A stretch of 64,000 nucleotides of DNA from Flavobacterium sp. CS20 (GTDB lineage: Bacteria; Bacteroidota; Bacteroidia; Flavobacteriales; Flavobacteriaceae). Where the stretch lies: NCBI RefSeq assembly GCF_018080005.1, contig NZ_CP073015.1, positions 2,384,501 through 2,448,500 on the forward strand, in the 5' to 3' direction. The position numbers and the translations under genes were made by a program. The notes under the pieces are model-generated. The model saw only the letters and a list, made by a program, of their open reading frames with translations. It had not been told where the DNA came from and ran no database searches. Shown one piece after another: positions 1,834 through 51,994 of the stretch; within the stretch, counting starts at the first letter, position 1; every line of letters starts with the position of its first letter.

Positions 1834-2544
1834 ATGGGAAGAGCTTTTGAGTTTAGAAAAGCTAGAAAAATGAAGCGTTGGGCGACGATGAGCAAAGCCT
1901 TTACACGTATAGGCAAAGACATTGTAATGGCTGTAAAAGAAGGCGGTCCAGATCCAGACACCAACGCCAAACTACGAGCTGTTATCCAAAATGCCAAGTC
2001 GGTCAATATGCCTAAAGATAATATTGAACGGGCTATTAAACGGGCTTCAGACAAAAATCAAGGTGATTACAAAGAAGTGCTTTTTGAAGGTTATGCTCCG
2101 CACGGCATTGCTGTTCTGATAGAAACCGCTACCGATAACAACACGAGAACAAGAGCCAATATCCGTAGTTATTTTAATAAATGCGATGGTAATTTAGGCA
2201 CTGCTGGTTCTGTGTCTTTTATGTTTGACCATACTTGCAATTTTAGAGTCAATGCTGATGGAGTTGACGTAGAAGAACTCGAATTAGAAATGATAGATTT
2301 TGGTGCAGAAGAAGTCTTTGAAGATGAAGACGGTATTTTAATTTACGCCCCTTTTGAAAGTTTTGGAGCCATACAATCCGAACTTGAATCCAGAAATATA
2401 GAAATTTTATCCTCAGGGTTTGAGCGTATTCCACAAGTCACAAAATCACTCTCTCCTGAACAAGTTGAAGATGTTGAAAAGCTTTTAGAAAAAATAGAGG
2501 AAGACGATGATGTGCAAAATGTATATCATACGATGGAAGAGTAA
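1834..2544 (+). CDS. yebC: YebC/PmpR family protein (transcription/translation regulator)
   Basis: A 236-residue protein with the hallmark N-terminus of the family (MGRAFEFRKARKMKRW) and the conserved 'GGPDPDTNAKLRAVIQNAK' and 'MPKDNIERAIKRA' helices. The acidic C-terminal domain ends in 'DDDVQNVYHTM'. Family members bind DNA as regulators or relieve ribosome stalling, and they act in the cytosol. Length is normal. ATG follows a promoter-like TATATTTG box 33 bp upstream. The gene is transcribed alone, and the next gene converges on it after 36 bp. Confidence 0.93.
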   Translation: MGRAFEFRKARKMKRWATMSKAFTRIGKDIVMAVKEGGPDPDTNAKLRAVIQNAKSVNMPKDNIERAIKRASDKNQGDYKEVLFEGYAPHGIAVLIETATDNNTRTRANIRSYFNKCDGNLGTAGSVSFMFDHTCNFRVNADGVDVEELELEMIDFGAEEVFEDEDGILIYAPFESFGAIQSELESRNIEILSSGFERIPQVTKSLSPEQVEDVEKLLEKIEEDDDVQNVYHTMEE

Positions 2545-2580
2545 ATTTTTATTACAATCAAATCAATTTACAAATGTTAA

Positions 2581-3216
2581 TCATTCTACTTTAGTAAAAA
2601 TCATTTCACTATCAACAGAATTTTCAACATCGAAATTGAAATCAGGAAAATCTTCAAAGCCTGGTATACTACTAAAGTCTAAATCTAATAATTCATCAAA
2701 ACCAGGTAAAGTTTCGTTTTGACTCATTGTCATTTGTTGAGAATTAAAAGACGTGATAGTAGATTGTGTTTCCCCATTACTGTTAGTTAATGTTAATACA
2801 CCATTACTGATTGACCACGTACCAGATTCTGGTACAAAGCTATCTTGAATTTCCTCTGTTTGTGGTGGAAGTCCTTCTTGAGTCACAGTTAAGTTATAAG
2901 TCGCAGTACCAGAAGTTATATAATCACCATTTTCTTCAAAAACAATAGTTAAGTCACCCTCAACATAATTTCCCTCAGTTGTCTGGTTAAAAGGTATAGT
3001 TTGACCATCAAAGGTTACATTACCAGTTTGAGATACTGAAAAGTTGTGGCTTGTCATCATCCATTCTCCAGTCAATTCATTTTCTTCAACATTAACTCCT
3101 TCTAAAGGGATATTTTCGTTTAATTCAAAATCTTCTGGAAGCGGTTCATCGTCACAAGCTGTAAAGCTGAAAACGAATAATATTAATAATCCACAAATCT
3201 TTATTGTATTTGACAT
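2581..3216 (-). CDS. Lipocalin-like secreted lipoprotein (hypothetical)
   Basis: A 211-residue protein with a lipoprotein signal peptide: a hydrophobic stretch at residues 7-20 and a lipobox ending FTAC, with Cys at about residue 21. The acidic linker after it (CDDEPLPEDFELNEN) is typical of exported Bacteroidota lipoproteins. The body has the 'LTGEWMMTSHNF' opening and alternating beta-strand pattern of lipocalin-like proteins, with 'WSISNGVLTLTNSNG' near the middle. No catalytic residues are evident. It converges with yebC and is divergent from the membrane protein/XRE pair. Ligand and role are unknown. Confidence 0.75.
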   Translation of the reverse strand: MSNTIKICGLLILFVFSFTACDDEPLPEDFELNENIPLEGVNVEENELTGEWMMTSHNFSVSQTGNVTFDGQTIPFNQTTEGNYVEGDLTIVFEENGDYITSGTATYNLTVTQEGLPPQTEEIQDSFVPESGTWSISNGVLTLTNSNGETQSTITSFNSQQMTMSQNETLPGFDELLDLDFSSIPGFEDFPDFNFDVENSVDSEMIFTKVE

Positions 3217-22023: not shown

Positions 22024-22096
22024 TGGCCTATGGTGTAACTGGCAACACATCTGGTTTTGGTCCAGAAGAGTCTAGGTTCGAGCCCTAGTAGGCTAA
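22024..22096 (+). tRNA. tRNA-Gln (anticodon TTG)
   Basis: A 73-nt cloverleaf. The acceptor stem is TGGCCTA/TAGGCTA (one G-U). The anticodon stem is TCTGG/CCAGA around loop TTTTGGT, giving anticodon TTG. The T arm is CTAGG-TTCGAGC-CCTAG. The CCA end is not encoded. It has a perfect-spacing promoter and a strong terminator directly after. Confidence 0.93.
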
Positions 22097-22104
22097 CAAA
22101 AATC

Positions 22105-22720: not shown

Positions 22721-22742
22721 GACTTAAAAATAATACTTTTTT

Positions 22743-22778
22743 TAAAAAACACCCTCTACTTGGGGTTGTAGAGGGTGG
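22743..22778 (-). terminator. Terminator after the 177-residue paralog
   Basis: ACCCTCTA/TAGAGGGT stem (22751-22758 with 22769-22776) followed by T6 on the minus strand. A closely similar hairpin follows the neighbouring paralog, so the terminator was duplicated with the gene. Confidence 0.65.
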
Positions 22779-22788
22779 TTGATTTATG

Positions 22789-23322
22789 TTAGTCTGATAC
22801 CTTAGTTAAAATAATATCTGTAGGCACATTAAAATCTGGCGAAACAGAGCTAAAAGTAAGATGCCGCCCTTCACTTTCCTGAACTGTCCATCTGGCAGTA
22901 ACCGTATTGGTAAGTTGATTGTTAGATATAATTTCAATTTTGACTTGACCTCTTTTTATTCTATCGTACAAATTTGGGTTTATTGTATTATCAATAAAGG
23001 GACCGATGAGGTAATTTGACGTGACATCAACATTAATAGCGCTAGGCACCCAACCTTTACTGTCGCCTGGTATTTTTCCTTTTTCTGAGGTATAAATATA
23101 GTTTTGTATAATGCCATTATCATCTACGACAAACTTTTCAAAATGACCTACAATTACATCGGGAGCTTCATTGTATTCCCATAATATTACTCTAAAAACT
23201 TCATTGTTTTCTTGATATTCCCAAGTTCCTGTAAATAAATCCATAGGAGTTGTTTGGGAGTAAAGAGCATTTGAAATTATTAAACTGGCACTAAATATTA
23301 AAATTTTTGAGTTTAGGTTCAT
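22789..23322 (-). CDS. Secreted protein, tandem paralog 1 (DUF6705-like)
   Basis: A 177-residue protein with a signal peptide (about 1-22, ending ALYSQT). The mature part begins 'MDLFTGTWEYQENNEVFRVILWEY', a lipocalin-like opening, and ends 'VPTDIILTKVSD'. It resembles a flavobacterial family I recall as DUF6705 (name uncertain). The next gene upstream (23378-23908) is a close paralog. About 205 bp of DNA are almost identical between the two, but the middle and 3' parts differ. Function unknown. Confidence 0.75.
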   Translation of the reverse strand: MNLNSKILIFSASLIISNALYSQTTPMDLFTGTWEYQENNEVFRVILWEYNEAPDVIVGHFEKFVVDDNGIIQNYIYTSEKGKIPGDSKGWVPSAINVDVTSNYLIGPFIDNTINPNLYDRIKRGQVKIEIISNNQLTNTVTARWTVQESEGRHLTFSSVSPDFNVPTDIILTKVSD

Positions 23323-23336
23323 TAACTTTTTTTTTA

Positions 23337-23369
23337 AACCACCCTCTAATTGAGATTTAGAGGGTGGTT
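23337..23369 (-). terminator. Perfect 12-bp hairpin between the two paralogs
   Basis: AACCACCCTCTA (23337-23348) pairs perfectly with 23358-23369. Only three T follow on the minus strand, so it is a weaker terminator than its duplicate at 22751. Confidence 0.6.
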
Positions 23370-23377
23370 GATTTATG

Positions 23378-23908
23378 TTAGTCGGATACCTTAGTTAAAA
23401 TAATATCCGTAGGTACATTAAAATCTGGAGATTGTGTTGATAATCTAATATGTTGTCCTATTCTTTCTTTCACAGTCCATCGGGCAGTAACGGTATTGGT
23501 AAGCTGATTATTGGATAAAATTTCAATTTTCACTTCACCCGTTTTTATTCTATCGTACAAATTTGGGTTAATCGTATTGTCTTCAAAAATACCTTTTATA
23601 AAATCTGTTGAAACGCCTGCATAAATAGCAAAGGGAATCCATCCTTTACTGTCGCCTGGTATTTTTCCTTTTTCAGAGGTATAAATATAGTTTTGTATAA
23701 TGCCATTATCATCTACGACAAACTTTTCAAAATGACCTACAATTACATCGGGAGCTTCATTGTATTCCCATAATATTACTCTAAAAACTTCATTGTTTTC
23801 TTGATATTCCCAAGTTCCTGTAAACAAATCCATAGGAGTTGTTTGGGAATAAATACTCATTGATAGTAAAAGACTTATGTTTAATAATATATGTTTTATG
23901 GTTTTCAT
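23378..23908 (-). CDS. Secreted protein, tandem paralog 2 (DUF6705-like)
   Basis: A 176-residue paralog of the preceding gene, with its own signal peptide (about 1-21). It shares residues about 22-95 almost exactly and the C-terminal 'FNVPTDIILTKVSD'. It differs in the region 'FAIYAGVSTDFIKGIFED' and around 'RIGQHIRLSTQ'. It lies 11 bp downstream of the JAMM-motif lipoprotein gene, so co-transcription is likely. Function unknown. Confidence 0.75.
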   Translation of the reverse strand: MKTIKHILLNISLLLSMSIYSQTTPMDLFTGTWEYQENNEVFRVILWEYNEAPDVIVGHFEKFVVDDNGIIQNYIYTSEKGKIPGDSKGWIPFAIYAGVSTDFIKGIFEDNTINPNLYDRIKTGEVKIEILSNNQLTNTVTARWTVKERIGQHIRLSTQSPDFNVPTDIILTKVSD

Positions 23909-34304: not shown

Positions 34305-34340
34305 AAAATAGTTGTTTTGCCAGTTTCACTCTATCTTATC

Positions 34341-34492
34341 AATCTTAACCCAATTTTGTCAACCTAGACCAAAACTTGTCAATCTGAACCCAAACTTGTC
34401 AATCTGAACCCAAACTTGTCAATCTGAACCCAAACTTGTCAATCTGAACCCAAACTTGTCAATCTGAACCCAAACTTGTCAATCTGAACTTG
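34341..34492. repeat. 20-bp tandem repeat array
   Basis: Five exact copies of AATCTGAACCCAAACTTGTC (34381-34480) are preceded by two degenerate copies (34341-34380) and followed by a partial one (34481-34492). It lies between ribD and a small ORF whose TGA stop falls inside the last partial unit. Each unit reads without stop in some frames, but no protein context is seen. Copy number is likely variable between strains. Confidence 0.9.
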
Positions 34493-36408: not shown

Positions 36409-36553
36409 GGAGCAGAAACCTGCTTTCCGCTATATTTTTTGGGTTGAGCTCAAGCATCTGTTTGGCTTGGCAGGATTACCGCTTGTGGCGACACTCTGTT
36501 TAGCCAACATCTGCTAAGGCTCAGCCCAAAAAGATGCCACTCCAATCAGGGCT
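36409..36553 (-). ncRNA. Structured intergenic element, flavobacterial type (copy 2)
   Basis: Read on the minus strand it has the same plan as 4060-4206: an AGCCCTGATTGGAGTGGCATC lead, CTTTTTGGG stem (11 bp, 36519-36529 with 36439-36449, one G-U), a variable interior of about 70 nt, then CCCAAAAAATATAGCGGAAAGCAGG with a terminal AGCAG/CTGCT hairpin (36411-36415 with 36420-36424). The outer words are conserved between the copies and the interior is not. As with copy 1, its 3' end abuts the stop codon of a converging gene. Confidence 0.5.
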
Positions 36554-36594
36554 ATTCACCCAATCGGTGTTTTAAAACCCTAACAACAAACCAA

Positions 36595-36903
36595 TTCTTT
36601 TAAATAATCAACTCCAAATACGCAGTTTGAGTGACCTTTGTCATTTTAAACCAAAAACCTTATTCATAATTTTGACTACTTTTAAAACCAAACCTATGCA
36701 ATATCTTATCCCTTTTGTAGATTGGACTAGTGGCGCTATTTTGATGACTGTTGTTTTTGGACTTGTTATCATCGGTCTAGTTGGTTTTGTGATTTATTTC
36801 ATAAATTCTTCAGCAAAAAAAGAACGCGAAAAAAAGAATGCAAAGGATTAATTGAAGTTTCTTCTTTTAAATAATCAACTCCAAATACGCAGTTTGAGTG
36901 ACC
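36595..36903. repeat. 42-bp perfect direct repeats flanking a small gene
   Basis: Bases 36595-36636 and 36862-36903 are identical. Read on the minus strand, both would encode the same short protein end (VTQTAYLELII then stop). They may be twin remnants of a lost gene's 3' end (inference). The first copy is in the leader of the 51-residue membrane protein. Confidence 0.75.
36696..36851 (+). CDS. Small single-span membrane protein (51 residues)
   Basis: ATG at 36696. A hydrophobic helix lies at about residues 15-36 ('ILMTVVFGLVIIGLVGFVIYF'), followed by a strongly charged tail (KKEREKKNAKD). Layout of a small inner-membrane protein. A TAATTTTG box at 36667-36674 may be the promoter. The frame is open upstream to 36627, but that start would lie inside the direct repeat. 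No family recognised. Confidence 0.6.
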   Translation: MQYLIPFVDWTSGAILMTVVFGLVIIGLVGFVIYFINSSAKKEREKKNAKD

Positions 36904-40250: not shown

Positions 40251-40862
40251 TTAAGAGGTCTTATCTTTTTTTGGGAAAGCTTTTTTGTGAAATACCAACA
40301 GAATTCCAAAACCTGTGCTTATAGCCGTATCAGCAATGTTGAAAACAGGTTCAAAAAACACAAAGCGTTCGCCACCCCAAATGGGAATCCAGCTCGGTAA
40401 AATATCATCGTAAATTGGAAAATAAAGCATGTCAACAACTTTGCCCTTGAGTATAGGTGCGTAACCACCACCTTCTGGAAACATAGTAGCTACTTGATCT
40501 AAACTGTCACTAAAAATAGTCCCATAAAACACAGAATCGATAATATTGCCCATCGCACCAGCAAATATCAAGCTGATGGCAATTAACAAGATTTTTGGTG
40601 CTTTTTTTCGAGTCGAATCCCATAACCACCAACCAATGCCAACAATAGCAAATAGGCGAAATACAGTGAGTATGATTTTGCCATAATCACCCGGAATTTT
40701 TGCTCCCCAAGCCATTCCTTCATTTTCTATAAAAAGAATCTGAAACCAGGAAAACACTTCAACGCTTTCATACAGTTTGAAATGGGTTTTGATATAAATT
40801 TTAGAAATCTGGTCTATAATTAAAATCACGATTATAAACCAGATTGATTTTTTTAAGTTCAT
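40251..40862 (-). CDS. lspA: Lipoprotein signal peptidase (SPase II), intact copy
   Basis: A 203-residue inner-membrane aspartic peptidase that cleaves prolipoproteins. Four transmembrane helices. Catalytic Asp residues lie in 'GAMGNIIDSVFYG' and 'FNIADTAISTG'. Length is typical for Bacteroidota. The 5' 293 bp (from 40570) belong to a 989-bp direct repeat. The second copy (to 50603) keeps only the first about 97 residues and lacks both Asp, so this is the working gene. The ABC-F gene follows 2 bp downstream. Confidence 0.93.
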   Translation of the reverse strand: MNLKKSIWFIIVILIIDQISKIYIKTHFKLYESVEVFSWFQILFIENEGMAWGAKIPGDYGKIILTVFRLFAIVGIGWWLWDSTRKKAPKILLIAISLIFAGAMGNIIDSVFYGTIFSDSLDQVATMFPEGGGYAPILKGKVVDMLYFPIYDDILPSWIPIWGGERFVFFEPVFNIADTAISTGFGILLVFHKKAFPKKDKTS

Positions 40863-40975
40863 CTATATAAAAGATTTGAAAGGCAAAAATAGGGTTTTTA
40901 TTCCATTTGCCTAACAATGATATTGCCGTTTACGCTCTTGAGGTTGATTTGATTTTTTTTTTGAATAAAACGAAT

Positions 40976-42361
40976 CATTGTTGTCCGATAAAAATCTAAA
41001 TTACTAAAAAAATCTTTTGTATCGCCTAATTTCACTGTGTAGCTTTAGTATTTTAAAAATAGAACCTCCTTATGGGTCAAAAAGGCTTAATTGACCTATA
41101 TTTTTTGTTGTAATATCTTCCCATTTTGCTTCTGGATTTTTAAGGAATTTGAACAAATCAATATAGGTCATTAAATGATATCGTATCACGGACATCATAT
41201 TAGAATATGCCCATTTTCTTTCTGCTTTTCTCTGAATGACAAGCATTATTAGTTGTATGATTAAGCTGACCCATATCTGTATCTCGATGGCATTTTGATT
41301 ATCTCCAAGAAAATACTTTAGCGGGAAGTTTTGTTTAAGGCGTTTGAACATAGTCTCGATTTGCCACCTGTTCTTGTAGATCTCGGCAATTTTATCTGCC
41401 TGAAGTTCATAATTGTTGGTAATGAACTCATAAACTTTTTGGTGTTTATCGTACCAAAAAGCTATTCTTCTAAGGTAAAATGGCTTACCGTCATTGTCTT
41501 TGAGTTCTATTTTTTCGTCCTTTAGGACAGCATCATCTACCGTGTCGGGAATATCAAACTCTTCAAGGCTTGTATAACGGGCATTGTCTTTTTGTCTGGT
41601 CACAAAGTAAATATTCTCTAAGGTCCATTTTTGGTATTGTTTATAATCCACATAACCTTTATCAAAGACGACATAAGAACCTTTCTTGAGTTCAAGATCC
41701 TTTAAAAAGGTATGGTCATGGGTTGCGGCATTTGAGAACTTTATCAGACAGGGCACATCTTCCATAGCATTTATCATAGTGTGCATCTTGATACCACCTT
41801 TCTTTTTGCCGTTGAGTGAGTTTCTACCTACACCTTTAAGAATGTCACTAAAGAGTGTTATAGTTGATGAATCAACAATTTTAAGGTCTTTTACAGCTGG
41901 TTCATAAGTTCTGCTGTCCGACAAAAATCGGTGGTAACGTTTATAGAGTAAATGGTAAATATCAGCAAATACTGATGAGCTTCTTCTCCTGTTGGCGTCA
42001 GATAATGTGCTTCGCTTTGGGAAATCTTTTAGCCCCAAATGGTTGATTTTTCCTTCACAAGCAAGCATAATACTCGATACTTCACGAAGCGAGCTACAAC
42101 CACTAATGACAGTGAAAATCATAGTAACTAAATGCTCATAAGTAGTGAACTTTTTAGTGTATCTGTCGCTGTTATGCTTTTCGGCTGTCCGATAAACATC
42201 GTTGGGTAAAATAAAATTTAAAACCTGTTTGATAATGGGTTGACCGCTGAAATTTTTACTTTTGTTCATATCTCTTTTTTTTTGCGAAAGATGAAGATAT
42301 AAAAAAGTGGGAAATCCTGTATTGGAAATCCCACTTTAAAATATTTTATCGGACACTAATG
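40976..42361 (-). mobile_element. Complete IS4-family insertion sequence (1386 bp)
   Basis: The ends are imperfect inverted repeats of about 18 bp reading CATT(G/A)(T/G)TGTCCGATAAAA from both outsides. They are flanked by a 9-bp target duplication AAAACGAAT (40967-40975 and 42362-42370). The uninterrupted target can be read in the right repeat near 50705. One transposase ORF. The insertion disrupts the left copy of the beta-helix-like gene. Confidence 0.92.
41070..42269 (-). CDS. IS4-family transposase with an N-terminal DUF4372-like domain
   Basis: A 399-residue DDE transposase. The DUF4372-like N-terminus contains 'FVISGCSSLREVSSIM'-type residues (here 'TVISGCSSLREVSSIM'). The catalytic core shows 'KIVDSSTITLF' (first D), 'YVVFDKGYVDYKQYQ' (second D) and the YREK signature 'YKNRWQIETMFKRLK' (E). 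The frame is intact, so the element may still be mobile. Confidence 0.93.
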   Translation of the reverse strand: MNKSKNFSGQPIIKQVLNFILPNDVYRTAEKHNSDRYTKKFTTYEHLVTMIFTVISGCSSLREVSSIMLACEGKINHLGLKDFPKRSTLSDANRRRSSSVFADIYHLLYKRYHRFLSDSRTYEPAVKDLKIVDSSTITLFSDILKGVGRNSLNGKKKGGIKMHTMINAMEDVPCLIKFSNAATHDHTFLKDLELKKGSYVVFDKGYVDYKQYQKWTLENIYFVTRQKDNARYTSLEEFDIPDTVDDAVLKDEKIELKDNDGKPFYLRRIAFWYDKHQKVYEFITNNYELQADKIAEIYKNRWQIETMFKRLKQNFPLKYFLGDNQNAIEIQIWVSLIIQLIMLVIQRKAERKWAYSNMMSVIRYHLMTYIDLFKFLKNPEAKWEDITTKNIGQLSLFDP

Positions 42362-42389
42362 AAAACGAATCAATTTTTATCATTCCATT

Positions 42390-42926
42390 TTACGAAAACG
42401 CCTTGATATCAGCTCTTTTGGTGTTTATTTTTATATTCCCGTTAAACGTATTGATATCTGCATGACCAACAAAAGCTTTGAGGTTACAATGTCCAGATTT
42501 TGTATTGAGTTGAAAATATTCAAATTCACCCTGACCTTCAACTGAAGCTAAATCTGACTCTATGATAAGTTGAGACTGTTGAGGAAGATCAAATGTAACG
42601 CTTACGGAAAAACTCTGCATTGAAGTCATTTTATTATCGCCAAATTCTAAAGCTTTAGGATAAATACTTTTTATAATCAAACTGTCATTTTGAATGCGAT
42701 AGTCAAAATACAACTCGGTTTTATAAGTGCTTTCTGCTGATGAATTGAATTTAAAATAAGCTGATTTATGCGTCTTGATTTCAATTTTTGAAACTTGATT
42801 GGCTTGAAACCACACGACTTTGATGCCATTGTTGTTGATTTCAAAAGCGGTTTTGAATTGCGGATAAGCTTTTTGAATGCTTAAAAATACTAATAGTAAA
42901 AACAAAAAGATTTGTTTGAAAATCAT
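42390..42926 (-). pseudogene. Truncated left copy of the beta-helix-like secreted protein gene
   Basis: 178 residues remain of a 210-residue protein intact at 50639-51271. A changed codon creates TAA after 'DIKAFS' (the intact copy has Gln), and the 3' remainder is further cut by the IS4-family element 29 bp downstream (its leftover lies at about 40900-40975). About 97% identical to the intact copy at protein level. It probably decays because the right copy still works. Confidence 0.85.
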
Positions 42927-43088
42927 TTATGTAATTTAGATTGTAATTAAATACTTAGTACCAGGTCAGAAACTGGTATATCTGGAATTTAAAAATTGAT
43001 CTTATCTATTGAAATCCTCAATTATACGGGCGTATTAGTCCGCTGAGACTTATATGAAGTCTTTAAAATTTAGAAGATAATAACCGAT

Positions 43089-44102
43089 TCATGGTTTTCT
43101 ATAAAAAGTTTTATGGTTGGACAGATCCAGGATTTTTTCCGCTTTTCCTGTGGTGATATACTTTTTCACATTCCTTATTCCCATCTTACTTGAATGCAAC
43201 AGCACTCCTTCAACCATTGCTGAATTGTGCGGAGATCCCAGGACGTTTGGTAATTCTAAAAACGGAAAATTCAATTCAAATTTATTTACAAAAAAAGGTT
43301 CTATCCACCAGGCATCTATAGCCGCCTTGAAAGTAGGGGTCGCTTTAAGCTTTTGGAATAAAGGTTCTTCCTCAATGATTTGTCCCCGAGCCAGATTGAC
43401 CAGGATAGCGTTATCTTTCATTTTACTGAGTTCTGCGTGACTAATAAGATTATTAGTCTTTTCTGTTAGCGGGATTGTAATGACCACAAAATCTGAATTA
43501 GAGAGCAGGAAATCCAATTCATCCAGTGTTCCAACCCAGTCGGTTTTTTCTTTACTCTTACCACTGGTATTTATGGCGAATATTTTACAATCAAAAGCAG
43601 ACTTCATTATTTGTCCAATACGCTTTCCAATACCTCCAAAACCAATTATTCCACAAACTTTTTGATCAATCAACATTGATTTACTCTCAAATTGATTGAA
43701 TTCTCCATGTTTCATTTCTTCATGCCTTAGTCTTAGATTTTTGACCAATGATAAAATCATACCCACTCCATGCTCTGCCATTGGCTTTGCATAGGCACCC
43801 ATATTACCAGCTACAATGGTGTCCTGAGGAAACCTGCTAAAATCCAGATGGTCATAACCAGCCGAAAGGAGTTGGATAAACCGAATTCCTTTAAAGGCTC
43901 GATCCTCCACTTCGGGTAGTTCAACGGTGGGATTTCGAGCAATTAAAATGTCCGAGTCTTTGAGTTTTTTATTCTGAATTTCTGCTGATAAGCCATTAAG
44001 AAAATGAACTTCTGCTATTCCATCAAGTTCCTTTTTATAGTATTCAAACTCCTCATCACTTACTTTATTGCTGACTGAAATAATATGCCTTGAGTTTTTC
44101 AT
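43089..44102 (-). CDS. D-isomer-specific 2-hydroxyacid dehydrogenase family protein
   Basis: A 337-residue NAD(P)-dependent dehydrogenase. 'GIIGFGGIGKRIGQIM' is the nucleotide-binding loop. The catalytic triad is visible as 'NLARGQIIEEE' (Arg), 'IDAWWIEPF' (Glu) and 'LGSPHNSA' (His). Last gene of the island cluster, 3 bp after an SDR gene. It could reduce or oxidise a 2-keto/2-hydroxy acid made by ring cleavage; this is an inference from context. Confidence 0.88.
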   Translation of the reverse strand: MKNSRHIISVSNKVSDEEFEYYKKELDGIAEVHFLNGLSAEIQNKKLKDSDILIARNPTVELPEVEDRAFKGIRFIQLLSAGYDHLDFSRFPQDTIVAGNMGAYAKPMAEHGVGMILSLVKNLRLRHEEMKHGEFNQFESKSMLIDQKVCGIIGFGGIGKRIGQIMKSAFDCKIFAINTSGKSKEKTDWVGTLDELDFLLSNSDFVVITIPLTEKTNNLISHAELSKMKDNAILVNLARGQIIEEEPLFQKLKATPTFKAAIDAWWIEPFFVNKFELNFPFLELPNVLGSPHNSAMVEGVLLHSSKMGIRNVKKYITTGKAEKILDLSNHKTFYRKP

Positions 44103-44105
44103 ATC

Positions 44106-44891
44106 CTAAATTGGGAATTTAGACTCTCCACCATCAACAGTCCATATTGATCCAGTGACAAAGGAAGTCGCTGGAGAAAGCAAAAAAGTTGCTACTCTAC
44201 CAATCTCTTCCGGTGTCGCAAAACGACCTAAAGGAATGTTTGCCGCCATTTGTTTTTCTGTCTCTTCTATGTTTTGACTTTTTTCATTTGCCACCATCTC
44301 TACGTATTTAGCCACAACTTCGGTATTGGTATATCCCGGGGCAATACCATTTACCCGAATACCCTTAGGCGCCAATTCTTCTGAAAAAGTTTTGACCATA
44401 CCAGCCACAGCTAGTCGTAGATTGGAAGCCAGTGTGTAATCTACGGACGGTTGCCGTATATAACTTGAAGTATTGAGCACAATACTCCCTTTATCACTAA
44501 GAATTTTCAAGGCATGGTAACAGAGATGCCTCACAGATGCTATAATGGTCGTGTAACCATTTTCCCAATCTTCGGAAGAAAGGGAAGATAGATTTCCCGC
44601 AGAAGGGGCTCCTGAATTTGTGAAAAGCAAATCCAGTTTTCCTTGTTGTTCATGTATTATATCAAAAGCTTTAATTATGTCGCTTTCGTTAGTAACGTCG
44701 CATACTAAAGGAATGACTTTGTTTCCAGTTTGCCCTTGAATATTTTTTGTTTTTTCTTGAATACTTTCTTTTGTGCGTGCACATGCATAAACTATTGCTC
44801 CTTCCCTGGATAGCTCTTCAGCTACAGTCGCTCCCATACCCTGGCTGGCTCCAGCCACAAAGGCTATTTTATTCTTAAGTTGTAAATCCAT
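44106..44891 (-). CDS. SDR family oxidoreductase with an atypical active site (1)
   Basis: A 261-residue Rossmann reductase. 'FVAGASQGMGATVAEEL' is the glycine-rich cofactor loop, 'TNSGAP' stands in for NNAG, and 'FVTGSIWTVDGG' is the usual end. At the catalytic site the sequence reads 'SVDYTLASNLRLAV', so Tyr is kept but the Lys of YxxxK is absent. This matches an SDR subgroup with 'LSNSLR'-type sequence. Substrate unknown; a pathway intermediate is likely. Confidence 0.85.
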   Translation of the reverse strand: MDLQLKNKIAFVAGASQGMGATVAEELSREGAIVYACARTKESIQEKTKNIQGQTGNKVIPLVCDVTNESDIIKAFDIIHEQQGKLDLLFTNSGAPSAGNLSSLSSEDWENGYTTIIASVRHLCYHALKILSDKGSIVLNTSSYIRQPSVDYTLASNLRLAVAGMVKTFSEELAPKGIRVNGIAPGYTNTEVVAKYVEMVANEKSQNIEETEKQMAANIPLGRFATPEEIGRVATFLLSPATSFVTGSIWTVDGGESKFPI

Positions 44892-44897
44892 TTTATA

Positions 44898-45662
44898 TTA
44901 ATTGGCTGTTATTAATCCTCCATCTACATGTATATTCTGTCCCGTTATGTACTGGTTTTCTTCCGATAGTAGATAAGCAATCAACCCAGCCACATCTTCT
45001 GGTTTTCCAAACATTTTCAACGGAATTTCTTTGATTGTTCTTTGATCGACCTCTTCTTTGCTGATGTTCTCTTGATCTGCGTAACGCTGATTAAAATCCA
45101 GGATCTGTTGAGTAGCGATGTAACCTGGAGCTACTGTATTGATTAATATCCCGTCACTGCCTAATTCCATAGCTACGGTCTTTAATGCGTTAACCAAGGT
45201 CGCCCTCAAACTATTAGATAAGACAATCCCAGCACGTGGGCTTTTAACCGTAAAAGAACTTATTGTCGCCACCCTACATTTCTGCTGTTTCTGCATGATG
45301 GGTGTCAATTCGCGCAAAAGCCTAAGCGGCCCATGCAACATGATTTTGGTATAAGTTTCCCATTCTGCATGTGATACTTCTAAAAAAGACTTAACAGGAG
45401 GTCCTCCATGGTTGAGGAGCAGAGCATCTATCTGACCTCTTTCTTCTACCTTAGCTATTAAAGCTGTGATTGTGGCATCATCGCCCAAACTTCCATCCAC
45501 TCCCTCTACTATTGTGCCATATTCCTTGAGTTTTTTCACCGCATTAGATGTATTCCTGCTGTTAATGATCAATTCATATCCTTTTTTTGCCAATATTTGT
45601 GCAGTGGCATATCCAATGCCTTTAGAAGCTCCTGTAAGTAATGCAATTTTTCTTTCCATCAT
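44898..45662 (-). CDS. SDR family oxidoreductase with an atypical active site (2)
   Basis: 254 residues. 'LLTGASKGIGYATAQIL' is the cofactor loop and 'LLNHGGPP' the NNAG equivalent. The active-site region reads 'PRAGIVLSNSLRATLVNALKTVA', lacking both Tyr and Lys of the normal YxxxK. 'YITGQNIHVDGG' ends the fold. It belongs to the same unusual SDR subgroup as its neighbour, and the two are distant paralogs. The cupin gene overlaps or abuts its start (stop at 45663). Confidence 0.85.
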   Translation of the reverse strand: MMERKIALLTGASKGIGYATAQILAKKGYELIINSRNTSNAVKKLKEYGTIVEGVDGSLGDDATITALIAKVEERGQIDALLLNHGGPPVKSFLEVSHAEWETYTKIMLHGPLRLLRELTPIMQKQQKCRVATISSFTVKSPRAGIVLSNSLRATLVNALKTVAMELGSDGILINTVAPGYIATQQILDFNQRYADQENISKEEVDQRTIKEIPLKMFGKPEDVAGLIAYLLSEENQYITGQNIHVDGGLITAN

Positions 45663-46007
45663 TTAAACATCTTTTAATTTTTGGATAAAATCTTCTCTCA
45701 CAGGGGTGAAGATGTCAAGAAGAATAGTGTCTTCTGCGACTTCTAATTCGTGCTCTTCATTAGAAGGGAAGTGTATAATTCCGCCTTGAGATAAAATAAA
45801 TTCTTCTCCTTTCATTCTTACTTTCACTCTACCTTTGACCACATAAGTCATTTGTTCATGAGGATGAGAATGTTTGGCGCCTATACTTCCTTTTGGTAGT
45901 TCTGCCTTCACTGTCATTAGCTTATCCCCGGCAAAAGGAAAAAGCTTTAACTTCTCCACCTGGAGATGGGGAAGTTCATTCATTTGTACATATTTACTTT
46001 TATTCAT
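45663..46007 (-). CDS. Cupin domain protein
   Basis: A 114-residue single cupin. 'GAKHSHPHEQMTYVVKGRVKVRMKGEEF' carries the metal-binding H-x-H-x3-Q/E motif 1 and 'GGIIHFPSNEEHELEV' motif 2. Small cupins of this kind often act as isomerases or auxiliary proteins in aromatic pathways. It sits between the channel gene and the SDR genes of the island. Confidence 0.85.
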   Translation of the reverse strand: MNKSKYVQMNELPHLQVEKLKLFPFAGDKLMTVKAELPKGSIGAKHSHPHEQMTYVVKGRVKVRMKGEEFILSQGGIIHFPSNEEHELEVAEDTILLDIFTPVREDFIQKLKDV

Positions 46008-46061
46008 AAAATCATATTATTTTTAAAAAATTGAATATAACTAATTTTTAAATCCAAAGGT

Positions 46062-47012
46062 CTATTTAGGCCAAATTTTTGTGAATGTGAAATTCACAAA
46101 AGGTGCCTGAGACCATCTATTTTCAGTTGTCACATCAAATGTCGCTGTTAATCGAAACATAAAAGTTTTATATTGTTTAAAAAATGCTGGACTGACGGCA
46201 AATGCCATTTCTTTTGAATCTGGTATTGAGTTTCCCCCTATTTCATGGTCTGACAATTGCTGTAAAAAATAGCCTGCTACCCCGACTCTAAATTCTTTCC
46301 CCAAATTGTAAGAGGCCGCATAATTCACATAAAAAGCTTGACCTGGTTTGGTTTCTTCAACGCCAAGACCAACAAATGGATCTTTGTTCTTTGAATTCCA
46401 CATATAGCGGAACCGCATTGAAGTTTCCCATGTATTGCTTTCGTCCCAATATATTGTAAAGGCATAATATGGCATAATGCTCCATACATTAGATCCCACA
46501 TTCACTAAGTTTTCTTCATCATAAGTCCCCGTGGGCAGGATGGCATTCAATAAAAAACGGTGAAAGAATGTTTTGCCGAATAGTTTTTTATTTGGCCATT
46601 GAATACCTGCTCCTATAATAACATCGCCAAGTCCAAATTCGCTTTCATCTAAAGCAGGAGGCACCTCAATTCCTACATTAACTAGGGGAATTAAGATTTC
46701 AGCCACTGGAAAACCATTCAGCATTGGCTTCTTTGAGACTATAGCCAAATGATTGATAAAAAGAAAATTGTTCAAACTATTGTCCCCAGGAATTTCATCA
46801 CCATTTGCATCGGTCAGCTTAGTTGAATTTTGGCTACCCAGGAAAGCCTCGTAAAGGATTCCTGGACCAGCAACTCCGTCATTAATACTTGTTAACCCTA
46901 CATCATTTGGAGGTAAATTCACTTGCGCTTGAAGAAAGAGAGGCAGGCAAGAAAACAGAATTAACAATAATGACTTTCGTATTTCTCGAAGAATTTTACT
47001 TAAACGTTTCAT
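46062..47012 (-). CDS. Outer-membrane channel, phenol MetA-pathway type
   Basis: A 316-residue protein with a signal peptide (about 1-30, ending LFLQAQV). Beta-barrel patterns carry 'FLINHLAIVSKKPMLNG', 'GLGDVIIGAGIQWP' and an aromatic end 'FTFTKIWPK'. It resembles the 'MetA-pathway of phenol degradation' family (SphA/ TbuX-like barrels), thought to bring hydrophobic aromatics across the outer membrane. This supports an aromatic substrate for the cluster. Confidence 0.8.
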   Translation of the reverse strand: MKRLSKILREIRKSLLLILFSCLPLFLQAQVNLPPNDVGLTSINDGVAGPGILYEAFLGSQNSTKLTDANGDEIPGDNSLNNFLFINHLAIVSKKPMLNGFPVAEILIPLVNVGIEVPPALDESEFGLGDVIIGAGIQWPNKKLFGKTFFHRFLLNAILPTGTYDEENLVNVGSNVWSIMPYYAFTIYWDESNTWETSMRFRYMWNSKNKDPFVGLGVEETKPGQAFYVNYAASYNLGKEFRVGVAGYFLQQLSDHEIGGNSIPDSKEMAFAVSPAFFKQYKTFMFRLTATFDVTTENRWSQAPFVNFTFTKIWPK

Positions 47013-47024
47013 TGCGTCGTGCTT

Positions 47025-47975
47025 TTATTTATCGGGGCCAATAGAGTTTGCTAAAAAATCAGGAGACAACTCTGGTCCCCACCAAATGATGCCCTCAGCC
47101 AATTCATTTTCTTTCCAAAGAACAGGTTTCCAGTCGGGATCATAAATATGGTAACCACCACTAAACAGTTCCAGCCGGTGTCCACTTCCCGGATCAATTG
47201 CATAAATGAACCCTGCTTGGGAGATGCCATGTTTTCCAGGAGCTAAACTAAGCTCTATGCCATTTTCCTTGAAAATATCTGCGGCTCTTGCCACGTCTTG
47301 GAAATTATCAAGATAAAAGACCGTATGGTGATATCTGTTTTTACGTCCAGCTTCGTCAAACATTATAGCCAAATCATGTACTAAAGTGGTTACAGATGTC
47401 CAAAAAGCCAATCCAAATCCATTGTCTAATTGGACGTATTCACGATTTTTAAATCCAAAAAGTTTTTCATGTAATTCCATAGATTCCTCGGGATTGCCAA
47501 CATTGAAATTAACATGATCTATGCACCGAGGAGATATTCCATGGTCAAAAGATTTAAATACTTGATTTTTAAGTCTGGATCTTTTGCCTTCAGGAGCCAA
47601 TGGTCTTTCCATATCATAATAGATTTCATAAGTCTGTCCCGTCGGTAAATTAAAACGAAACGCCTTTCCAAGACCAGCCTCTTTACCTTCAGGAACCCAA
47701 GAGGGATTTAAGCCAGCATTTTTTACCTTGTCATAAAAATAATCTACATCATCAGGCTCCTGGGTTTTCCAAGCAATATGATCTAACATAGCTACCTTTC
47801 CTTCAATTAAAATCAAAGAATGATGTTCAAAATCTGCCCATGCACGATAATAGATTTTATTTCCTTCGCGCTTTTGTTCATTTAATCCCACTATATCATG
47901 AAAAAACCAGTGTGATTTTTCAAGATTTGGAGTAACAAGGGCTACATGCCCCAACTTTGCAAGTCTTTTTTCCAT
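47025..47975 (-). CDS. Extradiol (catechol 2,3-type) ring-cleavage dioxygenase, VOC superfamily
   Basis: 316 residues, two glyoxalase-like modules. The Fe(II) ligands can be read as His in 'RCIDHVNFNV', His in 'RYHHTVFYL' and Glu in 'HRLELFSGGYH'. Tyr and the conserved 'HRLELFSGG' tail match two-domain type I extradiol enzymes. It opens catecholic rings next to the diol (meta cleavage). The hydrolase gene 17 bp upstream would process the product. The exact catechol is unknown. Confidence 0.88.
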   Translation of the reverse strand: MEKRLAKLGHVALVTPNLEKSHWFFHDIVGLNEQKREGNKIYYRAWADFEHHSLILIEGKVAMLDHIAWKTQEPDDVDYFYDKVKNAGLNPSWVPEGKEAGLGKAFRFNLPTGQTYEIYYDMERPLAPEGKRSRLKNQVFKSFDHGISPRCIDHVNFNVGNPEESMELHEKLFGFKNREYVQLDNGFGLAFWTSVTTLVHDLAIMFDEAGRKNRYHHTVFYLDNFQDVARAADIFKENGIELSLAPGKHGISQAGFIYAIDPGSGHRLELFSGGYHIYDPDWKPVLWKENELAEGIIWWGPELSPDFLANSIGPDK

Positions 47976-47992
47976 AATTAAATTTGTTTTTA

Positions 47993-48844
47993 TTAATAAT
48001 TCTTTTCGAAAAATTCTTTCAATAAAAAATGAAAAGATTCTTTATATTCAATTTGGGTCCAATGGCTACAGTGACCAAAAATGTGCATCTGAGCATTTGG
48101 AAGATGTTTGATGAGATAATGGCTGGTTTCTACATTGACTAATAGATCCTCCTGACCATGAATGATCAAAATGGGATGATTCATGTTTCTCAAAGAACCA
48201 TTGGGGATTATCAATTCATCAAGATGTTGTTGTCTAGGGGCTGGGAACATAGCCTCAAATGATCTACGGATATTTGGATCTGAAGAAGCCTCATGTCTCA
48301 TTTTAGCAATTTCTCCCAATTGATCTCCTATAAAGCTATTATCGTATGAAAACCAGGAAATTATATTTGCCATAAGTTCAGGTGAAGGATCGTCATAATA
48401 TCCCCATGTTCTATCTAATTCTGAAGTAATAGTGGTTGGTGCTCCGGCAGGACCCATGAGTACAACCCGATTAAACCGGTCGGGGAAATCCATTAAAAGC
48501 TGAAGACTGATAGCTCCTCCCATTGAGTTTCCGACCATATGCACCTTTTCTAGCTTTAGTTCGTCTAATAGAGAAATAATTTGATCAATCCATAGCCGCA
48601 TCCAGTTACGCATTCCTTTAGGTGGGTTTTCTGGATGGTTGCTTTTTCCAAAACCAATTAAATCTGGTGCAATACAATGGAATTTTTCACCAAATTCGGG
48701 CATAATATATTGCCAGTTTGACCATGCACTAGCTCCTGGACCAGAACCGTGCAAAAACAAAATCGCTTCTTTATGACTTGCTCCACATTCATTAATATAT
48801 GTATTATTCGCACTTTTTACGATACGGTTATTAACTTCTTCCAT
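47993..48844 (-). CDS. Alpha/beta hydrolase of the meta-cleavage C-C hydrolase family
   Basis: 283 residues. 'LHGSGPGASAWSNW' (oxyanion region), 'VGNSMGGAI' (nucleophile Ser), 'IHGQEDLLV' (Asp) and 'GHCSHWTQIE' (His) reproduce the MhpC/BphD/XylF pattern, including the F/G-x-C-x-H-W-x-Q motif specific to 2-hydroxymuconate-type C-C hydrolases. First gene of the catabolic operon. A TAACTTTG box (minus strand, 48897-48890) lies about 46 bp upstream of its ATG. Confidence 0.9.
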   Translation of the reverse strand: MEEVNNRIVKSANNTYINECGASHKEAILFLHGSGPGASAWSNWQYIMPEFGEKFHCIAPDLIGFGKSNHPENPPKGMRNWMRLWIDQIISLLDELKLEKVHMVGNSMGGAISLQLLMDFPDRFNRVVLMGPAGAPTTITSELDRTWGYYDDPSPELMANIISWFSYDNSFIGDQLGEIAKMRHEASSDPNIRRSFEAMFPAPRQQHLDELIIPNGSLRNMNHPILIIHGQEDLLVNVETSHYLIKHLPNAQMHIFGHCSHWTQIEYKESFHFLLKEFFEKNY

Positions 48845-49004
48845 AAGTTTTAAGTTTTAATATTATTAAAGATTAACTAAACGTTTCGTCAAAGTTAAAA
48901 ATATAAATTCTTACGATTTATACATTATATTGTCTTAAAAGTGCACAATTCGAATATTGTCTTTCGTCCTGGATGGGTAGTGATTTCGGAAATGGGAAGT
49001 TTGT

Positions 49005-49883
49005 TTATCTTTTACGATAGCTATTCCTGAAGTCTTTAGGTGTTTTACCTATATATTTCTTGAACATCCTAAAGAAATAGGTGGGATGATTAAAGTTTAG
49101 CTGATATGCAATTTCAGATATTGTTTTGTCCGAATAAATAAGTAATCTCTCTGCCTCATGGAGAATTCTCTCTCTTATAACTTTTCCAGCTGGATGCCCC
49201 GTTTCGTTTTTTACTACATGGTTAAGATATCCTTCTGAAAGGTTCAAATTACGTGCATATTCGGCCACACTCTTTTTGCTTACGAAATGTTCTTCAACAG
49301 CTTGAAAAAATTTATTCACAATCACTTGAGATGACGTGTAATGGGTGCTACTATCATGTAAATTATAATACTCAAAGAGTTTTAATAATGTAAGATGTAA
49401 ATAGGATCTAATAATCTCATCCTTCAAAAATGACCCACTAACATAAGTGCTATTCATATATTGAATTAGACCATTCACTTCTTTTGAAGTGGAGCTATTC
49501 ATCTTCACGATTAAGAACTTTTTTGAAATATTGTGCTTGATAATTCCTGCCAAGTGACTTTTATTTTCAGAATGGATTTCAAAAAAATCTGAGCTGAAAT
49601 GCATGGAATATCCCTGTACTGTTTTAGTAAAATTTGTTGCGTGAATGGTGTTTGGATACAGGAGCAGAAAATGATTGTTTTGTATTTCATGTTCTTCTTC
49701 ATCTATTGTGACAATATATTTACCATCCGATATCCAAACCAGCTGAAAAAGATGGCTATGGCGGTGGGGTTCTAGTATCCTTACTGTCTAAGCCAGACTT
49801 TCTATGGTATTTATTGAAAAATAATCTGATAGATGTTTTGGCGAATTTTCACCGTATTCTAAATAATTTGGGATAAATTTCAT
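49005..49883 (-). pseudogene. AraC-family transcriptional regulator with a nonsense codon
   Basis: The full frame from ATG 49883 encodes about 292 residues. The N-terminal cupin-like sensor ('HRHSHLFQLVWISDGKYIV', 'LLYPNTIHA') and the C-terminal HTH ('KSVAEYARNLNLSEGYLNHVVKNETGHPAG', 'ISEIAYQLNFNHPTYFFRMFKKYIGKTPKDFR') are intact. An in-frame TAG at 49788-49790 (codon 32) stops it. An internal start at ATG 49604 would make only the last 199 residues. It is oriented with the catabolic operon and probably regulated it. Confidence 0.85.
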
Positions 49884-49886
49884 TCA

Positions 49887-50310
49887 GTAAGGAATATTTG
49901 ATTTTTTAAGAATTATTTCTTAAATAAATTGTAACTAATCAATCCGCAAATTAGCAAAAATATTTAGTGTAGATAAAACTGGTTGCTGATTTTTTAAACA
50001 AGAACCTGTTACAGATCTAAGTTTGGCAAAGTTATCACAGCCTTGTTCTGATCTAAATTGTCCAGAGATTTTCTGTTTTACTTTTATATTTCTTATAGCT
50101 CTTTCAGAGGCGTTGTTATCTGGAGGGACATCCAGATGATAGAGGAATGTAAAGATATAGTTCCTGTATTTTATAAGTCTTTTTTTAAAGGTTATTAATT
50201 CTCTATGTTCTTTTGGCGGATCATGATTTAAGATGATATCCATTCTTTTTTCTATACTTTTCTTTATTGGACAATTCTCATTAAAGGCTATTTCTTTTAT
50301 TTTTTTCTTA
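49887..50310 (-). mobile_element. IS66-family remnant (transposase C-terminus)
   Basis: The coding part gives 'PPDNNASERAIRNIKVKQKISG' and 'LRSVTGSCLKNQQPVLSTL', the C-terminal signature of IS66 transposases, ending at 49935. GTAAGG at 49887 resembles the start of an IS66 terminal repeat. The 5' part of the transposase is missing because the sequence joins the lspA copy at 50311. Confidence 0.75.
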
Positions 50311-50603
50311 AAGCTGATGGCAATTAACAAGATTTTTGGTGCTTTTTTTCGAGTCGAATCCCATAACCACCAACCAATGCCAACAATAGCAAATAGGCGA
50401 AATACAGTGAGTATGATTTTGCCATAATCACCCGGAATTTTTGCTCCCCAAGCCATACCTTCATTTTCTATAAAAAGAATCTGAAACCAGGAAAACACTT
50501 CAATGCTTTCATACAGTTTGAAATGGGTTTTGATATAAATTTTAGAAATCTGATCTATAATTAAAATCACGATTATAAACCAGATTGATTTTTTTAAGTT
50601 CAT
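49935..50603 (-). pseudogene. Chimeric ORF: LspA N-terminus fused to IS66 transposase C-terminus
   Basis: 222 residues in one open frame. Residues 1-97 match LspA of 40251-40862 (one difference) and then switch at 'LLIAIS|FKKKIKE' to the IS66 transposase tail. The LspA part lacks both catalytic Asp and the last two membrane helices. The transposase part lacks the catalytic core. It is a recombination product and probably non-functional, although it would still be transcribed and inserted in the membrane. Confidence 0.85.
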
Positions 50604-51298
50604 CTATATAAAAGATGTGAAAGGCAAAAATAGGGTTTTTATTCCATTTGCCTAACAATGATATTGCCGTTTACGCTCTTGAGGTTGATTTGATTTTTTT
50701 TTGAATAAAACGAATCAATTTTTATCATTCCATTTTGTGAAAACGCCTTGATATCAGCTCTTTTGGTGTTTATTTTTATATTCCCGTTAAACGTATTGAT
50801 ATCTGCATGACCAACAAAAGCTTTGAGGTTACAATGTCCAGATTTTGTATTGAGTTGAAAATATTCAAATTCACCCTGACCTTCAACTGAAGCTAAATCT
50901 GACTCTATGATAAGTTGAGACTGTTGAGGAAGATCAAATGTAACGCTTACGGAAAAACTCTGCATTGAAGTCATTTTATTATCGCCAAATTCTAAAGCTT
51001 TAGGATAAATACTTTTTATAATCAAACTGTCATTTTGAATGCGATAGTAAAAATACAACTCGGTTTTATAAGTGCTTTCTGCTGATGAATTGAATTTAAA
51101 ATAAGCTGATTTATGCGTCTTGATTTTAATTTTTGAAACTTGATTGGCTTGAAACCACACGACTTTGATGTCATTGTTGTTGATTTCAAAAGAGGTTTTG
51201 AATTGCGGATAAGCTTTTTGAATGCTTAAAAATACTAATAGTAAAAACAAAAAGATTTGTTTGAAAATCATTTATGTAATTTAGATTGTAATTAAATA
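50311..51298. repeat. Right 988-bp direct repeat
   Basis: Second copy of 40570-42953, without the IS. Joined on its left to the IS66 remnant and on its right to the DUF3307 gene. About ten base differences from the left copy were noticed by eye, including one that changes lspA Val to Ile. Confidence 0.9.
50639..51271 (-). CDS. Secreted beta-strand-repeat protein (DUF4097-like), intact copy
   Basis: 210 residues. Signal peptide (about 1-22, ending KAYPQ). The mature part is rich in short strands ('LIIESDLASVEGQGEFEYFQLNTKSGHCNLKAFVGHADINTFNGNIKI' region), resembling DUF4097 beta-solenoid proteins. The family is uncertain. It lies 10 bp from DUF3307 and is the working twin of the disrupted copy at 42390-42926. 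Confidence 0.75.
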   Translation of the reverse strand: MIFKQIFLFLLLVFLSIQKAYPQFKTSFEINNNDIKVVWFQANQVSKIKIKTHKSAYFKFNSSAESTYKTELYFYYRIQNDSLIIKSIYPKALEFGDNKMTSMQSFSVSVTFDLPQQSQLIIESDLASVEGQGEFEYFQLNTKSGHCNLKAFVGHADINTFNGNIKINTKRADIKAFSQNGMIKIDSFYSKKNQINLKSVNGNIIVRQME

Positions 51299-51994
51299 TT
51301 TATAACCCAAACCTATAACAATAGCTATGAGAAAGCTCAATAAAGTTCCGATTAAAATGTATTCTGTGAGTTTTCTGTCTTTTGCTCTTGAAAGATCACC
51401 AAACCTAAATACAGATTTTGCAGTGATTAAAAACCCAATTGCACTCCAATGACCTAATACAATAAATAAAAAGATAAACAAGCGTTCTAAAATACCAATA
51501 AAAGCACCAGCATTTTTTAAAGCACTTTTAGGTTGGTCTTCATCTAATTGCCATTTACTCATCAGCGTTTTTATAACAACTGAAGTTACTGATGTTAGCA
51601 TCAAAATGGAGAGAAGTGTCAGTAAAAAATTACCTGAAAAGATGTTATCAAAACCAATTGAAAATGGAAAATTAAGATCAACCACAAGACCAATTACTGA
51701 TAAATGTAGCCCTTGGTCTATAAAAAACAAACGTCTTTCATTTTTAGAATTTTGTAAATAGAGTTTTGCCAAATCAATAACAAAATGGCTTAATAAAATC
51801 ATCAAAATATAAGGCCAAAGGCTAAAATCTAATTTTAAAAGAAGCAACAGTGCTATGGTATGCACCAAAATATGATAATATAAATATTTGGATTTATGTT
51901 TTTTGCGTTTTTTTTCGCTTATCCAAGTATTGGGTTGTAAGACAAAATCACCAATGATATGAGCAATCAATAATTTTAAAGTAAAAGCTAACAT
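51281..51994 (-). CDS. DUF3307 family membrane protein
   Basis: A 237-residue integral membrane protein with about six hydrophobic segments. The N-terminal 'KLLIAHIIGDFVLQPNTWISEKK' and 'YYHILVHT' carry the conserved His/Asp and Trp residues of DUF3307. It overlaps the SatD-like gene by 7 bp, a pairing often seen in Bacteroidota. Function unknown. Confidence 0.85.
   Translation of the reverse strand: MLAFTLKLLIAHIIGDFVLQPNTWISEKKRKKHKSKYLYYHILVHTIALLLLLKLDFSLWPYILMILLSHFVIDLAKLYLQNSKNERRLFFIDQGLHLSVIGLVVDLNFPFSIGFDNIFSGNFLLTLLSILMLTSVTSVVIKTLMSKWQLDEDQPKSALKNAGAFIGILERLFIFLFIVLGHWSAIGFLITAKSVFRFGDLSRAKDRKLTEYILIGTLLSFLIAIVIGLGYKYLITI

Follow-up and report, generated by a model that had tools for sequence, protein, structure and literature searches.

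An island of catabolic genes lies between two copies of a segment of host DNA in the genome of Flavobacterium sp. CS20, within the stretch of 64,000 nucleotides (the window; contig NZ_CP073015.1, positions 2,384,501 to 2,448,500 of the forward strand) to which the coordinates below refer. The closest described counterpart comes from Escherichia coli, where a linearised non-replicating plasmid gave a duplication PCR product in 56 of 60 candidate clones and sequencing of 14 clones revealed duplications of 109-950 bp; these were explained by end degradation, recircularisation and one crossover, in clones that had been expected to arise by homology-facilitated illegitimate recombination, HFIR (PMC3240628). 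As outlined in the same source, HFIR combines homology on one side with an illegitimate joint on the other, with 3-10 bp of microhomology in most cases, and target DNA is deleted. The locus described here would likewise consist of non-replicating DNA flanked by a partial repeat of the target (992 bp) with one gene restored. However, the E. coli events took place in the laboratory, under selection and with known molecules, whereas here the event is read back from one natural genome, with 11-bp microhomology at the closing joint. HFIR is matched by the microhomology at the illegitimate joint (11 bp, one mismatch) and differs in that target DNA is deleted there and duplicated here.

Two further systems are comparable in part. 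In merodiploids of Streptococcus pneumoniae, exogenous DNA of partial homology likewise leads to a direct duplication, via interchromatid pairing, but ~100-900 kb are duplicated between pre-existing repeats with no foreign island at the joint (PMC3784515). The RecA-dependent amplification of Burkholderia thailandensis, as summarised in the source, likewise involves long direct repeats around a recombinable block; those repeats are insertion sequences (ISs) whereas here they are host genes, and amplification of the present locus is only predicted (PMC9946442).

Comparison of the window with itself by blastn shows that 992 bp of host DNA, hereafter R, are present twice in direct orientation (50704-51302 against 42358-42957, 98.7%; 50311-50717 against 40570-40977, 98.8%; E = 0.0). 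A sequence-only reading of this DNA had already placed a segment of about 989 bp on both sides of the island; this is borne out, with the ends extended to 42957 and 51302. R runs from the interior of lspA through the secreted-protein gene to the final ~22 bp of the DUF3307 gene and, because its ends fall inside two different genes, either copy makes one of them complete and the other incomplete. Indeed, lspA is whole on the left and cut on the right and the secreted-protein gene shows the reverse, being open only in the right copy, an arrangement also given in the sequence-only reading and confirmed by the open reading frames (ORFs) and by the LspA model. The insert between the two copies measures 7,353 bp, which together with one R makes 8,345 bp. 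A simple tandem duplication of R with a neighbour is ruled out, as neither neighbour of R is repeated.

When the two copies were aligned base by base, omitting the IS4-family IS of the left copy, they differed by 4 + 7 = 11 substitutions and one 1-base indel, with a longest exact run of 310 bp. Polarised against two or three relatives, three of the 11 differences are derived on the left, five on the right and three are unclear. Hence the ~ 1% divergence, proposed earlier as the sign of a close-strain donor or of an old event, does not discriminate: derived bases occur in both copies, and strain divergence and later decay cannot be told apart as its cause. The IS4-family IS, which also occurs elsewhere in the genome in at least 11 copies at 99-100% and one more at 87% (40 of 97 candidates scored), probably arrived after the duplication since the left R copy alone carries one.

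The uninterrupted locus, for which the sequence-only reading had proposed a search, was found among the 59 other genomes of the 60 searched. R, DUF3307 and SatD are present as a single copy in one piece (1-2280) in the nearest genus relative G010, at 81%, and nearly to the end (1-1992) in the more diverged G026, at 65% (loci L070 and L072). In G013, lspA and the secreted-protein gene are present without DUF3307 and SatD there, and most remaining relatives display only short DNA-level matches to lspA or DUF3307.

Most of the insert has a foreign look. Its 6.85 kb of collinear sequence are 90.1% identical in DNA to a contig of a Weeksellaceae metagenome-assembled genome (MAG; 43051-49902) and 89.9% identical to Chryseobacterium sp. 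SC28 (43051-49899), and the eight genes are at 83-96% protein identity to each. The same eight-gene order is shared with the meta-cleavage aromatic cluster of another member of the Flavobacteriia, [Muricauda] yonaguniensis, at 57-89% protein identity. Since the island is ~ 90% identical to DNA of another family whereas the host locus is only 82-84% identical to that of G010, horizontal transfer of the island, in one direction or the other, is indicated. The distribution of the dioxygenase gene was also recorded: it is present in one of 27 genomes of the genus and one of 299 of the family, this genome each time, and in three of 395 of the order, this genome included. At the DNA level, 14 of the 60 genomes, this one among them, gave some match to the island; elsewhere the matches reach at most 141 bp, the longest ones falling in its IS66 part. 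Synonymous divergence from SC28 is 0.22-0.44 over the seven genes compared, so that, judged by sequence, SC28 is related to the donor line without being the direct donor. The ratios of nonsynonymous to synonymous divergence are low (0.08-0.24, the highest being that of the outer-membrane protein against the MAG), which argues that the island genes were constrained for the greater part of the time since they diverged.

The cluster of SC28 has a nucleosidase-like gene on one side and a lipoprotein gene on the other. Relative to the empty site of genome G687, ~7.2 kb have been cleanly inserted there, the two ends sharing a few A residues at most, and no long target duplication is present. The duplication is thus not inherent to the cluster. 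The SC28 insertion reaches ~240 bp past the homology with the window on the AraC side; given this difference in the AraC-side end, a discrete mobile unit with fixed ends is unsupported. Separately, the outer-membrane protein frame of SC28 (L074, 8966-9919) is split into two ORFs, although its tblastn match is unbroken. A surface-level literature search turned up no paper about the island.

The right end of the insert is a broken IS66-family IS, missed in the sequence-only reading, whose 7.36 kb of catabolic genes between the repeats was correct in size and incomplete in content. Nine full IS66 copies of ~1.6 kb are present in the genome, at 99.1-99.8% to one another (one copy serving as the reference). 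Between the fragment and full copies, 16 of 391-394 positions disagree, against 11 of ~988 for the two R copies; being the more diverged, the fragment suggests that the IS66 sat in the island before the duplication, an order that gene conversion between the two copies of R might falsely suggest. At the joint all nine full IS66 copies read AAGTTGATGGC and lspA reads AAGCTGATGGC, with the splice at TGATGGC (AAG(C/T)TGATGGC overall). In 200,000 random joints of IS66 and lspA, an exact run of at least 7 was obtained in 0.1% and 11 positions with at most one mismatch in 0.017%. By its sequence, the joint resembles what illegitimate end joining leaves behind. For the left joint, where R ends near 42957 and homology to SC28 starts near 42984, a second copy of the stretch was not found in the own genome. 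Two further observations concern these elements. An in-frame chimeric ORF of 222 aa at 49935-50603 joins the N-terminal half of LspA to the C-terminal end of the IS66 transposase. Furthermore, locus L069 (G000:C1:1335000-1340000) contains at 2265-3033 an internally deleted IS66 derivative of ~0.77 kb, in which two separate parts of the full IS66 are matched at 97-98%, with a weak match to the IS end.

Two R copies, a near-foreign island, an IS66/lspA splice and an uninterrupted locus in relatives are thus observed. The A-R-island-R-B topology (A and B being the host DNA on either side), the complementary intact and cut genes and the empty locus in relatives fit a Campbell-type insertion, and the insert plus one repeat plausibly closes at a single joint, with which the IS66/lspA microhomology is consistent. 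We give about even chances to the locus being an insertion-duplication produced by one crossover from a closed donor circle, where circle, crossover and donor arrangement are what we infer. In this scheme a donor fragment would have carried, as neighbours, the cut lspA, the secreted-protein gene, the catabolic cluster and a copy of IS66; its ends, one in the interior of the IS66 and the other in the interior of lspA, would have been joined via the 11-bp microhomology into a non-replicating circle of ~8.3 kb. This circle would have entered the lspA - secreted-protein gene - DUF3307 locus by one homologous crossover within R, restoring a full lspA on the left and a full secreted-protein gene on the right and leaving one cut copy of each, and the IS4-family IS would have landed in the left R copy later. 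Such a scheme needs one illegitimate joint only, provided that the donor already had the island beside the secreted-protein gene. More tentatively, the locus may be a natural record of capture in two steps, in which microhomology between an IS and a host housekeeping gene allowed linear donor DNA to close into a circle and a single crossover then brought this circle into the chromosome. It is gene capture of an already known and ordinary kind, though informative.

Several points weigh against this scheme. The circle itself was not found, with no match in 72,556 plasmid records: of the Campbell-type circle of ~8.3 kb put forward earlier, the topology, the size and the empty locus stand and the search for the island as a circle came back negative. 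Three pattern matches to a catabolic gene in viral contigs were not confirmed, and the donor strain was not found among the 27 genus, 299 family and 395 order genomes searched. The adjacency of island and secreted-protein gene in the donor has to be assumed. The substitutions are scattered over both R copies and the crossover point leaves no sign; moreover, the open right secreted-protein gene bears three derived changes, so that in conservation it has no visible advantage over its broken counterpart. Finally, template switching yields an identical product. A relative having the island without the repeat, taken earlier as a possible refutation, would not count among these points, as the simplest donor in the circle model is such a strain.

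Replicative template switching is the strongest of the other explanations, although we hold it to be rather unlikely. A broken fork would copy from the end of R into incoming island DNA and, at the microhomology, switch back into lspA upstream of the break, so that a single event, with no circle involved, would account for the duplication and for the two joints. The microhomology at the right joint suits it, as does the topology, but two non-homologous switches are required in one event. An explanation we regard as improbable is that a longer insertion-duplication of any origin was later trimmed on its right side, a deletion from IS66 to lspA leaving 992 bp of the repeat. The joint does lie in the interior of both IS66 and lspA, the outcome expected of a deletion between short matches, yet an extra step is needed and no further duplicated host sequence appears in the self-comparison of the window. 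Transfer of the island within an IS66-based composite transposon or translocatable unit is very improbable: an IS66 end borders the island and nine full copies are available in the genome, but the single IS66 fragment has no partner at the left end, host DNA is met in the interior of the IS66 and not at an IS end, and the repeats are host genes, unlike the 8-bp target duplications read by eye at 8 of the 9 full copies; with the joint inside the IS and a second IS66 absent, the composite transposon was rejected. An assembly artefact, to which the structure is exposed in that it is known from assembled sequence, is the least probable of all, since the genome is one contig of 3,064,238 bp, the R copies are distinct (11 differing sites and an IS in one) and the island gene order is kept in other genomes.

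The coordinates are collected in Table 1. The insert was described earlier as less AT-rich than its neighbours, which is correct though mild: the G+C content of the island core is 37.0% against 34.7% and 33.8% in the flanks and, because two further 2-kb bins of the window, distant from the island, reach 38%, composition alone would not single it out. The insert's annotated ORFs include no integrase or recombinase gene, and the sole tRNA of the window (22024-22097) is outside the insert. The AraC-family frame is open in the two closest relatives of the island (L073 and L074) and interrupted by a stop in the window. None of the island genes is a lower-pathway hydratase, acetaldehyde dehydrogenase or aldolase gene, whereas the [Muricauda] yonaguniensis cluster runs on into all three. 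Elsewhere in the own genome a hydratase-like protein is found at 54%; an aldolase match was not found, in a search without positive control. Given the stop in the AraC-family gene and the lower-pathway genes missing from the island, it may be partly decayed or used in a different route.

Table 1. Positions of the island genes, host genes, repeat copies, insertion sequences and joints in the window.
Feature	Position	Strand	Remarks
lspA (lipoprotein signal peptidase), intact	40251-40862	-	203 aa; Pfam PF01252; NCBIfam NF011369 292.5 bits, cut-off 200
R, left copy	40570-42957	-	5' part of intact lspA, then secreted-protein gene 3'-cut; IS4-family IS inside
IS4-family IS, 1386 bp	~40976-42361	-	only in left R copy; 9-bp target duplication AAAACGAAT, read by eye from element ends
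Left secreted-protein gene, broken	42390-42926	-	in-frame stop and IS just downstream
Left joint	42957-42984		end of R to start of SC28 homology
D-2-hydroxyacid dehydrogenase	43089-44102	-	PF02826
Short-chain dehydrogenase	44106-44891	-	PF13561
Short-chain dehydrogenase	44898-45662	-	PF13561
Cupin protein	45663-46007	-	PF07883
Outer-membrane protein, Phenol_MetA_deg family	46062-47012	-	PF13557
Extradiol ring-cleavage dioxygenase, catechol 2,3-dioxygenase-like	47025-47975	-	TIGR03211 297 bits, below equivalog cut-off of 320; PF00903, PF22247
Alpha/beta hydrolase, meta-cleavage-product hydrolase-like	47993-48844	-	NF045632 and TIGR03343, both below cut-off; PF00561
AraC-family regulator gene, in-frame stop in 5' part	49005-49884	-	199-aa C-terminal ORF left at 49005-49604
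IS66-family IS, terminal fragment, 391 bp	~49931-50321	-	outer end into transposase gene; PF03050; ~96% to full copies
Right joint	50311-50321		11-bp microhomology, one mismatch, IS66 interior / lspA interior
R, right copy	50311-51302	-	cut lspA and open secreted-protein gene
Right secreted-protein gene, open	50639-51271	-	210 aa; within right R copy
DUF3307 gene	51281-51994	-	last ~22 bp inside R

Other repeats were seen elsewhere in the window: a tandem duplication of a secreted-protein gene (22735-23853; 176-177 aa, 85% DNA identity), a 20-bp unit repeated ~7.8 times (34335-34489) and an exact 42-bp direct repeat (36595-36636 and 36862-36903) near a Flavo-1 RNA match on the minus strand (36412-36557).

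The gene lspA is likely essential, and because the duplication preserves one full copy, its locus can tolerate such an insertion. Recombination between the two R copies is predicted either to remove the island, returning the locus to its former state, or to amplify 8.3-kb units; in the B. thailandensis work, direct homology of 500, 150 and 50 bp led to recombinants at 10^-4, 10^-6 and 10^-7 (PMC9946442). Those rates need not apply to the present repeats, which have 1% mismatches and of which one contains an IS. Given its repeats, the island is a candidate for reversible loss or amplification. The locus offers a base-level view of the way in which a chromosome can acquire genes that lack mobility functions. 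If the pattern is general, the gain of islands free of integrase, plasmid and transposase would be recognisable by partial duplications of host genes of ~1 kb together with one microhomology splice, and this combination of duplication and splice can be searched for in other genomes.

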